Shown one piece after another: positions 29,657-38,985 of a stretch of 64,000 nucleotides of DNA. A program made the translations under genes and the position numbers. The stretch covers positions 558,001 through 622,000 of the forward strand of contig NZ_CP083387.1 in the NCBI RefSeq assembly GCF_020042345.1. The letters run 5' to 3'. Numbering within the stretch: the stretch's first letter is position 1; each line of letters opens with the position of its first letter. The notes under the pieces are model-generated. The model was not told the DNA's origin. It searched no databases and was given only the letters and a program-made list of their open reading frames with translations. The DNA is from Arachidicoccus terrestris (GTDB lineage: Bacteria > Bacteroidota > Bacteroidia > Chitinophagales > Chitinophagaceae).

Positions 29657-30424
29657 TTAAAAGGATAACGTCCTCCATTGCCAGTTCAGGGTATTGAATA
29701 ACACCAGCTGGTTATGCAGTACCGGCAAATCCATGAGCAATTTCAGGGATTCCTGCGCCATGAGTAGCCCGATAATACCGGGTAAAGTGGCCAGTACACC
29801 ATTTTCAGCACAATTAGGGGCGGAACCTGGTTTTGGCGGCTCAGGAAACAGATCACGCAGTGTTTTTCCTCCCTTATGCCCGAAAACAGCCAGCTGCCCC
29901 TCAAATCCGAGGATACTGCCATACACCACCGGGATTTTCAGTGTACGACAGCTGTCACTGACCGCATAGCGGGTAGGAAAGTTGTCAGTCCCGTCTATCA
30001 CCAGGTCATAACCGCTCAGTAATCTCCCGGCATTTTCGCGGGTCAATTTTTCATTTTTCCATTCAAATCTACCCGGCCCGCGCCGCGCCGCCAGCACATC
30101 AGCCGCCACCTGCACTTTTAACTGTCCGGTCTGGTCCGGCCTATACAGTATCTGCCGATGCAGGTTGTGTATTTCGATATGGTCAAAATCGATACAGGCC
30201 AGATGCCCGACCCCGGCACCGCTCAGATACTGGAGAATAGGACAGCCCAGTCCACCGGCACCGATCACCATGACTTTTGACCTGGCGAGTTTCAGCTGGC
30301 CTTCGGCGCCGATCTCGGGAACCAGCATTTGGCGGCCATATAACATAAAGTCTTCTTTGGTCAGTTGAGCATGATCAGTGGCTTCCGGTTTGTCAGTGAT
30401 AGTCCCTGATGGATCCTGATACAT
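29657..30424 (-). CDS. thiF: Thiamine adenylyltransferase ThiF (ThiF/MoeB/HesA family)
   Basis: A 255-residue E1-like enzyme that adenylates the C-terminal glycine of ThiS before sulfur transfer. The nucleotide-binding motif GAGGLGCPILQYLSGAG, DFDHIEIHNLHRQ and DGTDNFPTRY are intact. The zinc-binding CxxC pairs of E. coli ThiF are absent (the region reads LFPEPPKPGSAPNCAENG). A single candidate Cys for acyl-disulfide chemistry is in NCAENG. The ATG at 30424 is preferred over a GTG two codons earlier. It is the last gene of the thiamine operon, 17 bases after thiH. Confidence 0.9.
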   Translation of the reverse strand: MYQDPSGTITDKPEATDHAQLTKEDFMLYGRQMLVPEIGAEGQLKLARSKVMVIGAGGLGCPILQYLSGAGVGHLACIDFDHIEIHNLHRQILYRPDQTGQLKVQVAADVLAARRGPGRFEWKNEKLTRENAGRLLSGYDLVIDGTDNFPTRYAVSDSCRTLKIPVVYGSILGFEGQLAVFGHKGGKTLRDLFPEPPKPGSAPNCAENGVLATLPGIIGLLMAQESLKLLMDLPVLHNQLVLFNTLNWQWRTLSF

Positions 30425-30447
30425 TTTCACAAGTAAATTTTATAATT

Positions 30448-31635
30448 TTAAAAATATGCATCACTATTACCCGCCGCGAGCGCCAGATCCCAGTCCTTAA
30501 AAACAGGATCATATCCTGCCTGTTGAATGACTTGACAGATAGTGGCCAGGGATCGCTCATCGCTGATTTCAAACTGCTCCAGAGAGTCACTGTCAGTAGC
30601 GTAACCGCCGGGATTGGTTTTGGAGCCTGCACTCATTGTGGTTATCCCCAACCCGATAAGATGATCTCTAAAGGTTTCAGTCTCTCTGGTGGACAGAGAA
30701 ATATCCAGATCCGGATCACAGATACGATAAGCCAGGATCAGCTGCAAGAGTTCTTTATCAGAAACCGGGAAAGCCGGTGACAACGCCCCTGCGGCCGGCC
30801 GGAGACGGGGAAACGACAGACTGTATCCGGTCTGCCAGTAACGGTGGCGCATAAACCGAAGATGCAGCATTGTCATAAAACTGTCTACCCGCCAGTCCTG
30901 CAGGCCGAGTAAGACGCCCATCCCTATTTTACGGATACCTGCCCGGCAGGCTCTTTCAGCCGTTTCAAGCCGGAAATCAAAATTGGCTTTGCGGCCTCTG
31001 AGGTGGTACTGTTTATAAGCGGCTCTGTGATAGGTCTCCTGATAAACGGTAATTCCATAAGCGCCGGCCTCATTTAACGCTTTGTATTCGTGCTCATAGA
31101 GCGGCTGCACTTCTAAAGAGATCTGGGCAAACTGTTTTTTCAGCTGCCTCACAGTGCGCACAAAATAATCAGTGTTGACTTCCCTGGCCGCTTCTCCCGT
31201 TACCAAGAGTATCTGGTCAAACCCATATTGTTTTAATATCGCGGCTTCCGCTTCAACCTCCAGCGCTGTCAGTGTTTTCCTGGGGATCTTATTGTCCAGG
31301 CTGAAGCCGCAGTAGGTGCATATATTCTGGCATTTATTGCTCAGATAAAGGGGTGCGAATAAGCGAATGGTCTTGCCGAACCGCTGCACGGTCAGCTGCC
31401 TGGCCTTGCGGGCCATCGGCTCAAGATAACCCGCCGCGGCAACTGACAGTAATGCCATAAATTCTTCCAATCCCGGACGGGAATGCTGCAATGCGTTTAA
31501 CACATCCTGCGCTGTTTTAAGACGGATCTTTTTTTGAACCTCTTCCCAGCTGTAACGATTAAAAACGGTCAAAAAATCGGTTCCTGCGGCGGCCTGTGGC
31601 GTGTCAGCGGCTGCCTTTGATGTCATATCTGCCAT
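30448..31635 (-). CDS. thiH: 2-iminoacetate synthase (tyrosine lyase) ThiH
   Basis: A 395-residue radical SAM enzyme that cleaves tyrosine to dehydroglycine for thiazole synthesis; it marks the anaerobic-type pathway, in place of the ThiO glycine oxidase. The CxxxCxxC iron-sulfur motif is in KCQNICTYCGF. The LYLSNKCQN context, GAYGITVYQETYH and SFPRLRPAAG segments fit ThiH. The length is close to E. coli ThiH (377). It is between thiG and thiF. Confidence 0.96.
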   Translation of the reverse strand: MADMTSKAAADTPQAAAGTDFLTVFNRYSWEEVQKKIRLKTAQDVLNALQHSRPGLEEFMALLSVAAAGYLEPMARKARQLTVQRFGKTIRLFAPLYLSNKCQNICTYCGFSLDNKIPRKTLTALEVEAEAAILKQYGFDQILLVTGEAAREVNTDYFVRTVRQLKKQFAQISLEVQPLYEHEYKALNEAGAYGITVYQETYHRAAYKQYHLRGRKANFDFRLETAERACRAGIRKIGMGVLLGLQDWRVDSFMTMLHLRFMRHRYWQTGYSLSFPRLRPAAGALSPAFPVSDKELLQLILAYRICDPDLDISLSTRETETFRDHLIGLGITTMSAGSKTNPGGYATDSDSLEQFEISDERSLATICQVIQQAGYDPVFKDWDLALAAGNSDAYF

Positions 31636-31674
31636 TTTAGAATATTTTTCGTGATAAGAATATAGCCCGGCTGA

Positions 31675-32535
31675 TCAGGATAAAAAGTCGGTCAGCGGAC
31701 TGCTGGCCTCTCCCAGCCTTCCGCGCCCGGCCAGTCCCGCACGATAGGCCAGCCTGCCTGCTTCGACAGCCAGTTTAAAGGCAGTGGCCATTGTGACAGG
31801 ATCGGCAGCCGTCGCAACGGCCGTGCTGATGAGTACGGCGTCTGCGCCCATTTCCATTGCCAGGGCCGCATCGGAGGGGCTGCCAATGCCCGCATCAATA
31901 ATGACGGGTATAGTAGCCTCTGCAATAATTATCTCCAAAAAATCCCGGCTTTTGAGGCCCAGATTGCTTCCAATGGGCGATCCAAGCGGCATTACGGCTG
32001 CTACACCTGCCTGCTCGAGCCGCTTGCAAAGAACGGGATCGGCATGTACATAAGGCAGTACGATAAAACCTTTTTGAACAAGGACGGCCGCTGCCTGTAG
32101 GGTCTCCACCGGATCCGGCATCAAGTGTGACGGATCAGGATGAATTTCCAGTTTAATAAAATTAGTATGCAGCAGTTCCCGTGCCAGCTGCGCCGCTAAT
32201 ACAGCTTCGGCAGCATTTCTGGCACCAGAGGTATTGGGCAGCAAACGCATGGGCTGACTATGCGGTGCGTTTTTCCCTGGTTGTTTGGGAATATAGTCCA
32301 GCAACGAGCCGCCTTCACTTAGCCCTGCCGTACCGCTCTGCCTTGACTGCAAACGCCGAAGTGCCAGTGTGACCATTTCTGTGCCCGAAGTTTCAATGGC
32401 GGTACGCATGACCGCAAGGTCTCCGTATTTTCCTGTCCCCAGTAACAGTCTGGAAGAAAATGTTTCTCCTGCGATGACAAGGGCATCTTCCACCACGCCC
32501 ATTTTCGTTCTTTCTAATGTTTCTGTAGTGTCCAT
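31675..32535 (-). CDS. thiG: Thiazole synthase ThiG
   Basis: A 286-residue TIM-barrel enzyme that joins dehydroglycine, sulfur from ThiS-thiocarboxylate and deoxyxylulose phosphate to form the thiazole phosphate. Visible elements are [36 protein letters not shown], the Schiff-base Lys in [36 protein letters not shown]. About 20-25 extra residues at the N-terminus make it slightly longer than usual (about 260). Confidence 0.96.
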
Positions 32536-32598
32536 TTTTTATTTTTTATTATTCCACGCTTATAACCCTACCAGCCACTCAACACCCAGCAGTTGAAA

Positions 32599-33378
32599 TC
32601 AGACTGAATTTTCATGTAATAGAGCGTCCAGTATTTTTACCTGCCCCGATACGTGAGGCACAGCATCCGGATACCGGATTTTCCATTGATGGTATTGGTC
32701 AATGACATTATCTAAAGTAAGGGACCTTCTAGAGACCTGCAGGGCTGTCAGATCCACCAGCCGGGTCAACCATCCCGAAATAGCGACGCCATTTATTGCC
32801 GTTCCCATTAACAGGGGCAGATCCTCCGGGATAATCCCGCCGATCGCATAGACCGGGCAGGGGACTACTCTTCGCTCTTTATCTTCCCCCAGTATCCGCC
32901 TGTAGCCTTCCAGCCCGAGCACAGGGCTCAGCTTCTTTTTTGTACGGGTGAACCTGTAAGGGCCAAGACCAATATAGTCTACTTCTTCCGCTACCCTTGC
33001 CAACACATCGCCGCCGGTATTCGCCGTTCCGCCAATAAGATAGTCACGCCCCAGGAGCTGCCTGGCTGCTGCAACCGGCTGATCTTCCAGACCGAGATGC
33101 ACGCCCTGGGCATGCACCATTTTTACCAGATGAGGATAATCATTTAATATAAATCTGGCATTATAGGCCCGGCAAAGCTGCGCCACTGCATTGCCGGTTC
33201 GAATAATATCCGGCTCATCTACTTCTTTGAGTCGCAGCTGTATCCAGCGGCATCCGGCTTCCAGCGCCAGATGAATATAAAACAGATGCTCTGCCGGCAT
33301 TGCGCCTTGAGAAACAAATTGCCATCTGGCCCAGCTCTTTTTTACATCAGGTATGGCAATACGGGGTAAATGATTCAT
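32599..33378 (-). CDS. thiE: Thiamine-phosphate synthase ThiE
   Basis: A 259-residue TIM-barrel enzyme that couples HMP-PP and thiazole phosphate to thiamine phosphate. The RLKEVDE pyrophosphate-binding region, RFILNDYPHLVKMV (Asn-Asp), GVHLGLED, GGTANT and DYIGLGPYRFTRTKKKL segments are conserved. The fully conserved motifs make it the true ThiE, in contrast to the related protein at 34299. It is longer than E. coli ThiE (211) because of an extended C-terminus. Confidence 0.92.
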   Translation of the reverse strand: MNHLPRIAIPDVKKSWARWQFVSQGAMPAEHLFYIHLALEAGCRWIQLRLKEVDEPDIIRTGNAVAQLCRAYNARFILNDYPHLVKMVHAQGVHLGLEDQPVAAARQLLGRDYLIGGTANTGGDVLARVAEEVDYIGLGPYRFTRTKKKLSPVLGLEGYRRILGEDKERRVVPCPVYAIGGIIPEDLPLLMGTAINGVAISGWLTRLVDLTALQVSRRSLTLDNVIDQYHQWKIRYPDAVPHVSGQVKILDALLHENSV

Positions 33379-33414
33379 CTTTCCCTGTTTTTAATATAAT
33401 TATCGGGCTCCCTG

Positions 33415-34323
33415 TCAGCTATGATGCATGGCATGTACACCCAGGTTTCCCCGGCCCGTACATAAAAATTGTTCCATATAATCTTTGGCGAGCACCACGG
33501 CTTCTGGCAACGGAAGGCCCTTTGCCAGCGCCGCAGCCAGGAAGCTGCTATGTACACAACCTGAGCCATGCTTTCCGGCAAGGGCGTTGTCTGCTTCCTT
33601 TTGCTCTCGCTTCCACTTCCTTCCAGCTACATGAACTTCCAATGTCTGAGTAGCAGATACAAAATGATATAAGGTATCAACAGGGGGGCTATCAGTCAGA
33701 TGGCCCCCTTTAAGTACCACTGCCGTGTCGGCACACCGGCTTATTTGCCGCATAAGCGGATCCAGGGTCGCCGCAGAAGTGTCAAGTCCTGAGCTGCGTT
33801 CCAGACCCAATAGCCGACACAGTATAATAGCCTCTTCCGCATTGGGCGTCACCACATGACAGCGCTGCAAAATAGATGTCCAGCAGACGGCATTCTTGCC
33901 TGTCAGGTCATCCTGCGTGAGATGGAAAAACCGGACGCCGGAGGAGGCTTTTAATACAGGATCCCATACAATCAAAGCTTCCGGCAGATCTTCATGAATC
34001 TGCGTCAATATTTTCTGCAGCATTGTCCGGTCTGCCATAACACCTATTTTTACTGTCCGGATAGCAAAGCGCGCACATAATGTTTTAAGAGAGTAGCAGA
34101 TCGTTTCTACGTTTTGCCAATCGACATGATAGAGCTTTTCATCTGTCTGAACTGTCGTGCAACTGGCAAGGCCAAGCCCATAGACACCCTGGCTCTGCAA
34201 CGTTTTTATATCCGACAACAGCCCTGCGCCCGCGCTTGGGTCAACCCCTGCAATGCTCAGCACAAAGGGTCTATCGGTCTCTGCCTGTAAAATACGCTTC
34301 ACCGTATCCCCATATTTTTCCAT
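33415..34323 (-). CDS. thiD: Hydroxymethylpyrimidine / phosphomethylpyrimidine kinase ThiD
   Basis: A 302-residue ribokinase-fold kinase that phosphorylates HMP and HMP-P to HMP-PP. The N-terminal SIAGVDPSAGAGLLSDIKT motif (substrate and Gly-rich site), VWDPVLKASSG and the C-terminal catalytic Asp loop GKHGSGCVHSSFLAAALA are visible. The last contains GSG-C in place of the usual GTGC. The gene overlaps the tenI-like gene by 25 bases, indicating translational coupling. Confidence 0.92.
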   Translation of the reverse strand: MEKYGDTVKRILQAETDRPFVLSIAGVDPSAGAGLLSDIKTLQSQGVYGLGLASCTTVQTDEKLYHVDWQNVETICYSLKTLCARFAIRTVKIGVMADRTMLQKILTQIHEDLPEALIVWDPVLKASSGVRFFHLTQDDLTGKNAVCWTSILQRCHVVTPNAEEAIILCRLLGLERSSGLDTSAATLDPLMRQISRCADTAVVLKGGHLTDSPPVDTLYHFVSATQTLEVHVAGRKWKREQKEADNALAGKHGSGCVHSSFLAAALAKGLPLPEAVVLAKDYMEQFLCTGRGNLGVHAMHHS

Positions 34324-35029
34324 ATACCTGAACAGATTTTAAAGTAGCCCGTTATCTTCTTTTCCCACGCCGACGGCTTATCGACATCTAAAGAACGCCA
34401 GACAGCACCCAGTAAAGCGGCACCGTCAAAACCAGCGTTTCTTATAGCCGGCAGGCTTTTCGCCTGAATGCCACCCATGGCTATTCGTCTGCAACCATGA
34501 GGGTTTTTATTTTCCCGTACCACTCGCCAGAGGGCTGGATTTGCTTTATACCCGCGTTTGGACAGACTGTCAAACAGTGGACTGACCAATACATAATCAT
34601 ACCGCAGAGAAGATTTCCTGTTTTGGGACAAAGCATCAAGCTCAGCAGGTGTATGAATACCGGTGGAGAAGGCCATTCTATGCTCCACAGATCTCAGGCT
34701 TGATAAGAGTGCCTCTGCAGCCTGTACACGCAACCACCCCGGAATATGCAACCTGTATAAACCCATTTGTTCCATCCATTGCAACAGTTGCCCCAACCGG
34801 CCTTCCGTATCTGGATCGCCCAACAAATCTTTAGGCGGATGCAGAACGATCTTTGGCCGATCTTCCATTTTAAACTGATCTATCAAAGATGTCAACGCAG
34901 CAAAATCCGCCGCGGGCTTGCGAACATGCAGCAGTTCGAGCCCCTGGTCCAGCAGCGCTGTCATCAAAGCGACCTCGCCGTATGATAAACGGACATCGGC
35001 AAGTTCCGGTCTGGAGATTACAATTATCA

Positions 35030-35030
<1 letters not shown>
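34299..35030 (-). CDS. ThiE/TenI superfamily protein, probably thiazole tautomerase
   Basis: A 243-residue TIM-barrel protein related to ThiE but lacking the Asn-Asp pyrophosphate motif: the equivalent strand reads KIVLHPPKDL. His126 in STGIHTPAEL aligns with the position of the catalytic His of B. subtilis TenI, which isomerises the thiazole produced by ThiG. TenI is therefore the better assignment, but with moderate confidence. Its stop overlaps the thiD start, and its start ATG overlaps the thiC stop codon (TAATG). Confidence 0.7.
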
Positions 35031-36889
<1,859 letters not shown>

Positions 36890-36928: not shown

Positions 36929-37162
36929 TTAACCACCCTGTGTGGCGGTTAGAATCAATAACTTGTCATGCTCTTTCAAAAAGGTCGATGGCCAGTTAGC
37001 TCTGGCAATGACCTGATCATGTAATGCAACGGCAATACCACCGGGGCGATCGGGGTAAAGCTGCTCCATCACATTTTCCAGCGACAAGGGATTTGAAAGT
37101 CCGTCAGCGCCTGCTGGCTCTAAGGAGAAATTCTGTTTTTTCTGATTAATTTCCAGTTCCAT
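36929..37162 (-). CDS. thiS: Sulfur carrier protein ThiS
   Basis: A 77-residue ubiquitin-like protein ending in Gly-Gly (TATQGG), which ThiF adenylates to form a thiocarboxylate. The beta-grasp pattern shows GIAVALHDQVIARANWPSTFLKEHDKL. It is first in the operon. Its ATG (37160-37162) lies at the 3' arm of a perfect 12-bp hairpin downstream of the TPP aptamer, with AGGA just before it. Confidence 0.9.
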   Translation of the reverse strand: MELEINQKKQNFSLEPAGADGLSNPLSLENVMEQLYPDRPGGIAVALHDQVIARANWPSTFLKEHDKLLILTATQGG

Positions 37163-37196
37163 TCCTAAAGTTTTTTAATTGAATACTTTAGGAATG
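37160..37196 (-). promoter_or_regulatory. Start-codon-sequestering hairpin of thiS
   Basis: A perfect 12-bp stem pairs 37185-37196 with 37160-37171 around a 13-nt loop. On the mRNA the 3' arm is ACTTTAGGAATG, which holds the AGGA and the ATG of thiS. The 5' arm (CATTCCTAAAG) can instead form 11 contiguous pairs (two G-U) with CTTTAGGGGTG at 37299-37309, the 5' strand of the TPP aptamer. The two pairings exclude each other, so this looks like the expression platform of a translational riboswitch. Confidence 0.65.
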
Positions 37197-37230
37197 ACCA
37201 CTATATGCCGGACGGCAGAAGAAAGCATTT

Positions 37231-37309
37231 CACTTTTCCCTACGCTAGTATGAACTAGATCAGGTTCAGAGGGTAAAATCTCAGCCTACAATTGTAGACA
37301 CCCCTAAAG
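37231..37309 (-). promoter_or_regulatory. TPP riboswitch (THI element)
   Basis: The minus strand carries the conserved TPP aptamer signature in order: AGGGGTG, GGCTGAGA, TTACCC, TGAACCTGATC and ACTAGCGTAGGGAAAA. It lies about 70 bases upstream of thiS and at the head of the thiamine operon. The P3 region is short, so the aptamer is compact. Confidence 0.96.
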
Positions 37310-37437
37310 CGATTCAAAGGTAAGGATCTTTAACTATCCACCAAAAACAATATCTGATACTTTGAGCTAAAATTAATAAAATAAACTTACACCCATATGC
37401 TGAAGCAGCTAATCAGGAATTATTATCCCGCGTTTTC

Positions 37438-38985
37438 TTATTGCTTAGGTTCAATAATTTCAACCTTCCCTTTATTACCTGTTATAGAAGCCAGCGGCGC
37501 CAGAGATGGCCCTTCCAGCACCTCACCGGTTACGGCAAACCGGCTTCCGTGGCAGGGACAATCCCAGGATTGTTCAGCGCTGTTGAACCCAACGATACAT
37601 CCCATATGCGGGCAAACAGCAGATTTAACAATGAGTTTTTTATCCGGTGCCCTGTATACAGCTAATTTATGACCTCCATGATTAATCACTTCGCCCGTTT
37701 CCACCTGTACTTTCGAAAAATCTTTGTCATGATAAGTTCCGATGTCAAGCACCCGCTTGACCAACTTAGCCGCAACGTCGATATTTTCCCGGACAAAGTT
37801 TTTTGCCGACTTAAGCGGATTAAACCTGGAGGGAGAAAATAATGCCGCAAATTCACTTTTCCCTTCCAAAATAAGATCCCTGAGAATGGAGGCGGCAAGC
37901 GTGCCATACACAAGACCATCCGTAGCATATCCGGTGGCTATATATTCACCGGGGCCAGTCTTACCTATATAAGGAAGCAGGTCAGCTGGCCTGTAATGCT
38001 GGCCACCCCAGCAATACACCACTGACTGTACAGGAAAATACTGATAAGCGAATTCCTTCAGTTCTTTAATCAATCTTTCATTATCCATCACATCGCCCGT
38101 CTTGTGCTTTTTACCAATCACCAGCACATACGGCACCTCTTCTATTTCATAAAACCGGACAGAAAATTTCTCATTTTTTAACTGCCCCCAATATATACCG
38201 TTAAAGGCAAGTGCATGGCTTAGCCGGCAAGCAATCCCATATTCCCTGTAAGGGCCTAAAAGCGCCTGCTCAAACATCAAGCCTTTCGGCGTGTGGGTGG
38301 CATGAACGACAGTTTTTGCATGAATGATCCCGTCGCGGGTACGCACGGTAAAATGATCTTTTTCGCGCTGCATCTCTATAACCGGCGAAGCTTCAAATAT
38401 CTTGACAAGTTCAGGGCTTATTTTCTGACTGAGCTCCGTAACATAGCGCAACGGATTAATTTGCATCTGCCCTTCCAGCTTAAAACCTTCAAATGATGGC
38501 AATGGAATTTCATCTCCAGTTGCCTCCCTGACCGGCAAATTTAATTTTCTCGCAGCACGGAATTCCTGCCGGTTAAAATCAATACCATCTGCATCCATAC
38601 TAAATAAATACATATCACAGCGGCGCTGTTTCGCCTCAATAGCATATCTGTTGGTCAAGTCCGCGATGAGTTCAAGTCCCTTCTTCCTGGCCTGAGTAAC
38701 ACTTCGCATCTTCTCTTCATTATATTTATCGCAGAACTCAGTAAGAGAAGTATCCATTAATTCATATAAGTTACCGGTGCTATGTCCCGTCGTGCCCTTT
38801 CCAACCCGGCAAGCCTCTACCACAGTTGACGGCTGACCTTGTTCCGCAAGCAGGGCCGCCAGTGATATACCTGTGATACCTCCGCCGATAATCAAGACAT
38901 CTGTTATATGTTCTGCTGCCAGGCCCGGAAAATCCACTTCCAAACTGTCCGCCTCCCATATTGATCCTGTTGGCCTCATCATCAT
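37438..38985 (-). CDS. FAD-dependent oxidoreductase with C-terminal Rieske domain
   Basis: A 515-residue fusion. Residues about 25-400 are a DAO-type FAD oxidoreductase (DVLIIGGGITGISLAALLAEQG, GKGTTGHSTGNLYEL, ATGYATDGLVYGTLAA). Residues about 425-510 are a Rieske [2Fe-2S] domain with CPHMGC and CPCHGSRF. This architecture is known as a group of proteins annotated as FAD-dependent oxidoreductases with Rieske domain; the substrate is not known. No signal peptide was seen. The ATG overlaps the stop of the next gene upstream (TGATG), implying coupled translation. Confidence 0.9.
   Translation of the reverse strand: MMMRPTGSIWEADSLEVDFPGLAAEHITDVLIIGGGITGISLAALLAEQGQPSTVVEACRVGKGTTGHSTGNLYELMDTSLTEFCDKYNEEKMRSVTQARKKGLELIADLTNRYAIEAKQRRCDMYLFSMDADGIDFNRQEFRAARKLNLPVREATGDEIPLPSFEGFKLEGQMQINPLRYVTELSQKISPELVKIFEASPVIEMQREKDHFTVRTRDGIIHAKTVVHATHTPKGLMFEQALLGPYREYGIACRLSHALAFNGIYWGQLKNEKFSVRFYEIEEVPYVLVIGKKHKTGDVMDNERLIKELKEFAYQYFPVQSVVYCWGGQHYRPADLLPYIGKTGPGEYIATGYATDGLVYGTLAASILRDLILEGKSEFAALFSPSRFNPLKSAKNFVRENIDVAAKLVKRVLDIGTYHDKDFSKVQVETGEVINHGGHKLAVYRAPDKKLIVKSAVCPHMGCIVGFNSAEQSWDCPCHGSRFAVTGEVLEGPSLAPLASITGNKGKVEIIEPKQ

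Follow-up and report, generated by a model that had tools for sequence, protein, structure and literature searches.

A putative TPP-sensing OFF switch at the thiS start codon of Arachidicoccus terrestris, a Shine-Dalgarno-free variant of the anti-P1 riboswitch

The leader of the thiamine operon in a 64,000-nucleotide stretch of the Arachidicoccus terrestris genome (contig NZ_CP083387.1, positions 558,001 to 622,000; here called the window) can adopt two mutually exclusive folds. Its most probable function, at a probability of about 0.8, is that of a TPP-sensing OFF switch for thiS translation, in which a strand downstream of the aptamer, the anti-arm, would pair either with the aptamer or with the start-codon region. 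Judged from the sequence, its recurrence and covariation in relatives and modelled folds, this appears to be a genuine anti-P1 TPP riboswitch, a class already known, in a form that lacks a Shine-Dalgarno site. Dependence on TPP, a decision during transcription and a translational read-out are the parts of this proposal that we infer, and a spread of the effect to the downstream genes would need translational coupling, polarity or Rho.

The operon and its leader lie on the minus strand. By Pfam, the gene order is thiS-thiC-(TMP-TENI)-thiD-thiE-thiG-thiH-thiF. The first gene of the operon, thiS, occupies 36929..37162 (PF02597, E 5.2e-06) and is separated by 57 nt, according to the ORF coordinates, from a run at 29657..36871 made up of thiC, a TMP-TENI family gene and the thiD-like, thiE-like, thiG, thiH-like and thiF-like genes. 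The gene at 34299-35030 is a second member of the TMP-TENI (thiE/tenI) family, besides that at 32599-33378, and possibly encodes TenI. The aptamer lies upstream of these thiamine genes (thiS, thiC and others by Pfam) at 37220..37315, ending 57 nt before thiS, and belongs to RF00059 with a cmscan score of 74.2 bits, above the gathering score of 54.3 (E 9.3e-13). The single-contig genome of 4.9 Mb contains five RF00059 matches, two of which exceed the family cut-off. Two TPP-like elements that resemble each other, L003 (G000:C1:2099414-2099529) and L005 (G000:C1:4703822-4703934), both under the gathering score, are each followed directly by a strong GC-rich hairpin and then a T-rich tail. No same-strand ORF of at least 90 aa was found downstream of either element within their 3.1-kb loci, and a pattern built on the two matched this genome only, among 39 searched including itself. 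These elements are possibly stand-alone RNAs or relics.

The first of the two folds is a start-codon sequestor hairpin at 37160..37196, with a 5' arm CATTCCTAAAGT (37196-37185), a 13-nt loop (37184-37172) and a 3' arm ACTTTAGGAATG (37171-37160) that ends in the thiS ATG (37162-37160), the first ATG, GTG or TTG after a stop. All 12 pairs are Watson-Crick. The 5' arm is part of the anti-arm, 37185..37201, which has a second possible partner, an anti-sequestor strand at 37294..37310 that includes the aptamer strand CTTTAGGGGTG (37309-37299). The helix of 37310-37294 with 37185-37201 contains 16 pairs and one U.U mismatch and, with its end at 37294, extends along the 5' side of P1 and P2 into P3. 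The hairpin closes the thiS start codon in its 3' arm, as an OFF stem of the anti-P1 class does. The long-range helix with the aptamer 5' strand, supported by its pairs and its covariation, is exclusive with P1, again as in that class. The preliminary description had proposed a perfect 12-bp hairpin covering the ATG and a competing pairing over 11 positions with two G-U pairs; the former was borne out to the base, and the latter was confirmed as part of the longer helix. When the 191-nt leader was shuffled with its dinucleotides preserved, one of 200 sequences folded at least as well (z -2.93), and none of 200 shuffles of a 160-nt leader (L001) was as complementary to the aptamer strand as the real sequence. 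The two partners of the anti-arm, CTTTAGGGGTG and CTTTAGGAATG, look alike because both compete for one strand.

Relatives were collected from the genus, from 294 family genomes by RF00059, from 394 family genomes by an aptamer pattern (present in 62), and from the best 80 of 591 ThiC loci, taken from named genomes. A hundred further regions consisted of the first 80 locus-less hits among the matches listed for the 294 genomes and of 20 aptamer-pattern hits. The leaders from the 394 genomes were selected for CTTTAGGGGTG, and the rest came from RF00059 hits or ThiC. Among L001-L256, 88 distinct leaders were caught by the aptamer regex with TTTAGGGG; these exclude L031 and L250, in which the regex placed its anchor wrongly. 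A ThiS-like start was recognised by regex in 83 of the 88, and after removal of L025, L071 and L115 (wrong starts), correction of L253 and addition of L070, 81 leaders were retained. Start-codon openness, P3 covariation and nascent folds were assessed in 70 leaders having an anti-arm score of at least 17 and a start downstream, the hairpin swap test used 56 non-redundant leaders, and the codon-2 test used 66 leaders with an anchoring motif (52 unique), a motif that is misplaced in a few of them, such as L170. When the search was widened to the class, 35 of 395 genomes had the aptamer pattern. It gave 30 new loci, of which four were already in the sample and six failed a stricter regex; the 20 further leaders that remained share phylogeny with the first set and are not independent of it.

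The usual description of a translational riboswitch has it concealing a Shine-Dalgarno site. The preliminary description had AGGA buried together with the ATG, and both are indeed in the 3' arm of the hairpin, but AGGA directly abuts the ATG with a spacer of zero and cannot be a Shine-Dalgarno site because nothing separates the two. AGGA was rejected in this role, and no buried Shine-Dalgarno ribosome binding site of the Escherichia coli thiC type was found in the leader. Bacteroidota are reported, in the available text on Flavobacterium johnsoniae, a model of the phylum, to lack Shine-Dalgarno sequences, and initiation in this species is partly tuned by structure around the start codon (PMC6847099). 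GGA stands immediately 5' of the ATG in 36 of the 70 leaders with an anti-arm score of at least 17, which on a simple reading would reflect a second demand on its complement TCC, namely pairing with GGGG of the aptamer.

The transcript is predicted to start close to the aptamer. A Bacteroidota -7 promoter element, TACCTTTG (consensus TAnnTTTG), is located at 37315..37322, and a possible -33 element, TTTG, weakly indicated by sequence, at 37342..37345, 19 nt further upstream. In the available description of probable F. johnsoniae promoters, 4-5 nt separate TAnnTTTG from the start and the -33 element is much less evident (PMC6847099). Together, the -7 element and this spacing place the predicted start at 37310 or 37309, and the mRNA would then begin with the anti-sequestor itself. 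Between -18 and -12 from the C of CTTTAGGGG, 75 of the 81 leaders have TAnnTTTG with no more than one mismatch, and 36 have it exactly; the offsets -15, -14 and -13 accounted for 24, 12 and 25 leaders, and the other tested offsets for at most six each.

The preliminary description had staked its proposal on covariation of the two pairings in relatives, and in part of the relatives both helices were kept despite sequence change. For the hairpin, the anti-arms of 56 leaders gave a mean of -11.8 kcal/mol with their own partners and -9.2 (sd 0.36) with swapped start regions, and none of 5000 swaps was as good, although the z-score of such swaps overstates the evidence because they ignore shared ancestry. 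Only one of the 56 leaders had its own partner ranked first, and 31 had it within the best quarter, since many leaders have similar start regions. The separate arm types are stronger evidence for the hairpin than the swap z-score. Whole arms were replaced in L068 (CTGCAT/ATGCAG), in L041 (TGTCATTCCT/AGGAATGACA), in L029 and its relatives (GTTCAT/ATGAAC) and in L062 (CCATTTC/GAAATGG). The first base of codon 2 also pairs with the arm in 39 of 52 unique leaders through four pair types (C-G 23, T-A 8, T-G 7, G-C 1; 13 unpaired), a test that is modest alone (211/20000), and pairing past this base occurs in a minority (-2/+5 in 17/52, -3/+6 in 21/52).

For the alternative helix, the P1 and P2 strands cannot show covariation here because they are nearly invariant and were partly selected. 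P3 varies freely, and it played no part in locating the anti-arm. The bases just upstream of that arm pair with the 5' strand of P3, as in TCTAC/GTAG, TCTGC/GCAG and, in L062, TCACAC/GTGTG. Over 34 distinct P3 strings, 2.18 of five positions formed Watson-Crick pairs, against 1.52 when the strings were swapped (z 4.2; 1/20000, or 69/20000 counting G-U), in statistics that ignore shared ancestry. Shifts of the register by 1-2 bases gave z values of at most 1.4, and some P3 strings, e.g. in L083 and L216, pair little or not at all. The effect was repeated more weakly in the 20 further leaders (z 2.2, 447/20000, in register 0 only) and at 269/20000 in the 14 of them with a score of at least 17. 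A promoter constraint could contribute as well to the frozen ACTTTA, but it cannot account for the covariation of P3.

Folding was modelled with no term for TPP energy and no polymerase. The first folds, from 37330 or 37320, gave a 5' hairpin using bases upstream of the likely start, and folding was repeated from 37312, 37310 and 37309. Without ligand, nascent RNA ending at 37185-37166 adopted the alternative helix with a modelled probability of 0.98-1.00 (0.98-0.99 for a 5' end at 37310), and RNA with its 5' end at 37310 that reached 37160 or beyond adopted the hairpin at 0.96-0.99. As long as the 3' arm is still to be made, the model prefers the alternative helix to the enforced aptamer by about 12 kcal/mol (5' end 37310), so TPP would need to bind before about 37185 is made; in the ligand-free model with this start, P1 and P2 of the aptamer barely form (at most 0.06). 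In folding under constraints, the A and U of the AUG were open (0.97 and 0.99) and the G partly so (0.38) when the alternative helix was enforced, and the AUG was closed when the aptamer was enforced. The preliminary description, in which the ATG is free without TPP, is qualified by the full-length RNA at equilibrium, where the hairpin stands at about 0.99 even without ligand.

Among the relatives, enforcing the alternative helix left the AUG more exposed than enforcing the aptamer did in 62 of 70 leaders (mean openness 0.43 vs 0.15), a difference that arises partly by construction, and in genus g7 it was no more open in the alternative fold. Nascent RNA favoured the alternative helix in all 70 leaders, and full-length RNA gave it a probability above 0.5 in only 31. 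Given a full-length hairpin of about 0.99 without TPP in the window, either the contest between the folds has to be decided while the RNA is being transcribed, or the modelled energies are wrong. In the available account of E. coli thiC, the anti-P1 helix is found in a stalled complex and is not predominant in the full-length transcript without TPP, which indicates a co-transcriptional decision (PMC5234074). The full-length RNA modelled here is alike in not being mainly in the anti-P1 fold, and by model and analogy the choice of fold is probably made during transcription in A. terrestris as well.

The following course of events is proposed. The polymerase would make the aptamer first, with the 5' strand of P1, P2 and P3 forming the start of the mRNA or lying close to it. 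With TPP bound, the aptamer would retain this strand, and the anti-arm, made next, would stay free to pair with the emerging start-codon region, so that the AUG is closed. Without TPP, the anti-arm would capture the aptamer 5' strand while the start region is yet to be transcribed; the aptamer would be broken up and the AUG left open for the ribosome.

The same two folds could be read out chiefly at the level of mRNA, if RNA left untranslated by a closed AUG is lost through Rho-dependent termination or decay. This is a possibility that we hold tentatively. It fits an operon-wide effect, the thi transcripts of Bacteroides thetaiotaomicron drop with thiamine in the portion of that study available (PMC5613172), so RNA-level control is possible in A. 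terrestris too, and E. coli thiC is described as coupling its fold to Rho termination (PMC5234074). Loss of the mRNA is also compatible with the translational OFF switch as a second layer of it. An improbable reading is that the hairpin is permanent and merely lowers thiS translation, the complementarity to the aptamer being incidental. The full-length equilibrium folding of 0.99 without ligand would suit it, but the P3 extension covaries with the aptamer, and in register only. Many relatives, e.g. L047-L053, moreover have a hairpin of about 7-8 bp, with an anti-arm end (AAAGT or AAGGT) that by eye is unpaired in this short hairpin yet fits the aptamer; in L054, L056 and L078 the arm end deviates from the aptamer complement. 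It is very improbable that a regulator protein binds the inverted repeat as its DNA operator, in spite of the palindrome at the start codon, and this reading was rejected because leaders with 12/12 pairs differ in the distance from anti-arm to ATG (14 to 49 nt) and both arms change together; the upstream part of the arm also covaries with P3 of the aptamer. An intrinsic terminator is scarcely credible and was rejected, since the 12-bp hairpin, strong as it is, is followed by no run of T and a terminator scan of 37000-37450 returned no site.

Among the Bacteroidota sampled, the predicted start-codon device is, on sequence evidence, widespread but patchy. An anti-arm complementary to the aptamer strand was found at a shuffle p of at most 0.05 in 61 of the 88 CTTTAGGGG leaders (46 at p of at most 0.005), and no significant one was found by this test in 27 of the 88 or in 11 of the 20 further, class-wide leaders. 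In the ThiC sample (best 80 of 591 loci), 50 of the 80 loci were taken as Bacteroidota; the regex recognised a TPP aptamer in 41 of these, and 26 of the 41 had a significant anti-arm. The commonest anti-arm is CATTCCTAAAGT, present in Myroides, Flavobacterium, Sphingobacterium, Chryseobacterium and others. Genus g7 has CATCCTTAAAGT, in which 11-12 pairs are kept by shifting the G-U pairs. Low anti-arm scores were obtained for Maribacter, Tamlana and Flavivirga, and the leader of the same-genus genome G003 (L006; p 0.07) is different and by eye resembles the leaders of these three.

Other leader types were recognised by eye. L006, L079, L106 and L107 form a third type with TACAG...CTGT-like pairing just upstream of the start; its genomes are of the Flavobacteriaceae type except for G003, which belongs to the genus of the window and could have acquired it by horizontal transfer. 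L019, L021, L025 and L027 are family leaders with a CTTTAGGGG aptamer and no significant anti-arm, and their downstream protein resembles, by eye, ThiM and not ThiS. L250 appears to have an independent solution, in which GCACCTCTA fits the aptamer TAGGGGTGC at 9/9 positions with one G-U; its CACCTCT also complements AGAGGTG, which codons 2-4 of its thiS-like gene contain. Of 37 TPP leaders whose aptamer strand is CCTCGGGG or close to it, the longest inverted repeat was in 24 a downstream GTTCC.../...GGAAC hairpin, with its 3' arm within the first codons and the ATG in the loop (by eye; e.g. L022, L023, L032, L035, L039, L128, L140, L146, L153, L161, L180, L188 and L191). By eye, the proteins behind CCTCGGGG-type leaders begin like signal peptides. 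CCTGTTC ahead of this hairpin complements GAACAGG of the aptamer, which may therefore be a second platform working on the same principle.

The class of mechanism is not new, as the competition of an anti-P1 helix with a sequestor of the ribosome binding site or start codon is described for E. coli thiC and tbpA in the available text of both studies (PMC5234074, PMC11487190). In thiC, as here, the element has a TPP aptamer, the OFF state closes the start codon, and in the ON state a long-range anti-P1 helix forms at the expense of both P1 and the sequestor; thiC buries the ribosome binding site too, whereas the target here, with no Shine-Dalgarno site, is the start codon with its neighbouring bases, and the alternative helix of the window extends into P3 (PMC5234074, as far as its available text goes). 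E. coli tbpA (thiB) likewise has an anti-P1 ON fold and translational control, but, unlike the window, sequesters a Shine-Dalgarno site and has a GUG start, according to the portion available (PMC11487190). A 2026 full-length covariation model of TPP riboswitches likewise asks which aptamer bases the expression platform shares; in its available text that model, from 48 terminator-bearing seeds, shares two nucleotides, against 16 pairs of the aptamer 5' strand in the window (PMC13273304). For B. thetaiotaomicron, of the same phylum and also with a thiS-led operon under a TPP riboswitch, the accessible part of a 2017 study describes no such expression platform and calls the function of Bacteroidota TPP riboswitches uncertain (PMC5613172).

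A partial search of the literature, made without preprints, found no account of such a platform in Bacteroidota. A 2019 preprint by Costliow is said to place control of the B. thetaiotaomicron biosynthesis operon at the level of transcription. We consider it an even bet that Bacteroidota have TPP platforms of their own that are free of Shine-Dalgarno sites, in which the 5'-terminal strand of the aptamer and the start codon itself share a single RNA strand as partner. The AGGA before the ATG would then be a mimic of the aptamer AGGGG and no ribosome site, P1 and P2 would be frozen because they also serve as anti-sequestor, and the second platform, on transport-type leaders, would use the aptamer GAACAGG and early codons likewise. 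For the Bacteroidota this provides a concrete model, backed by covariation, in which the start codon itself would be the target, and it offers a reason for the near-invariant P1/P2 strand in these leaders. The question thereby becomes testable in a tractable relative such as F. johnsoniae.
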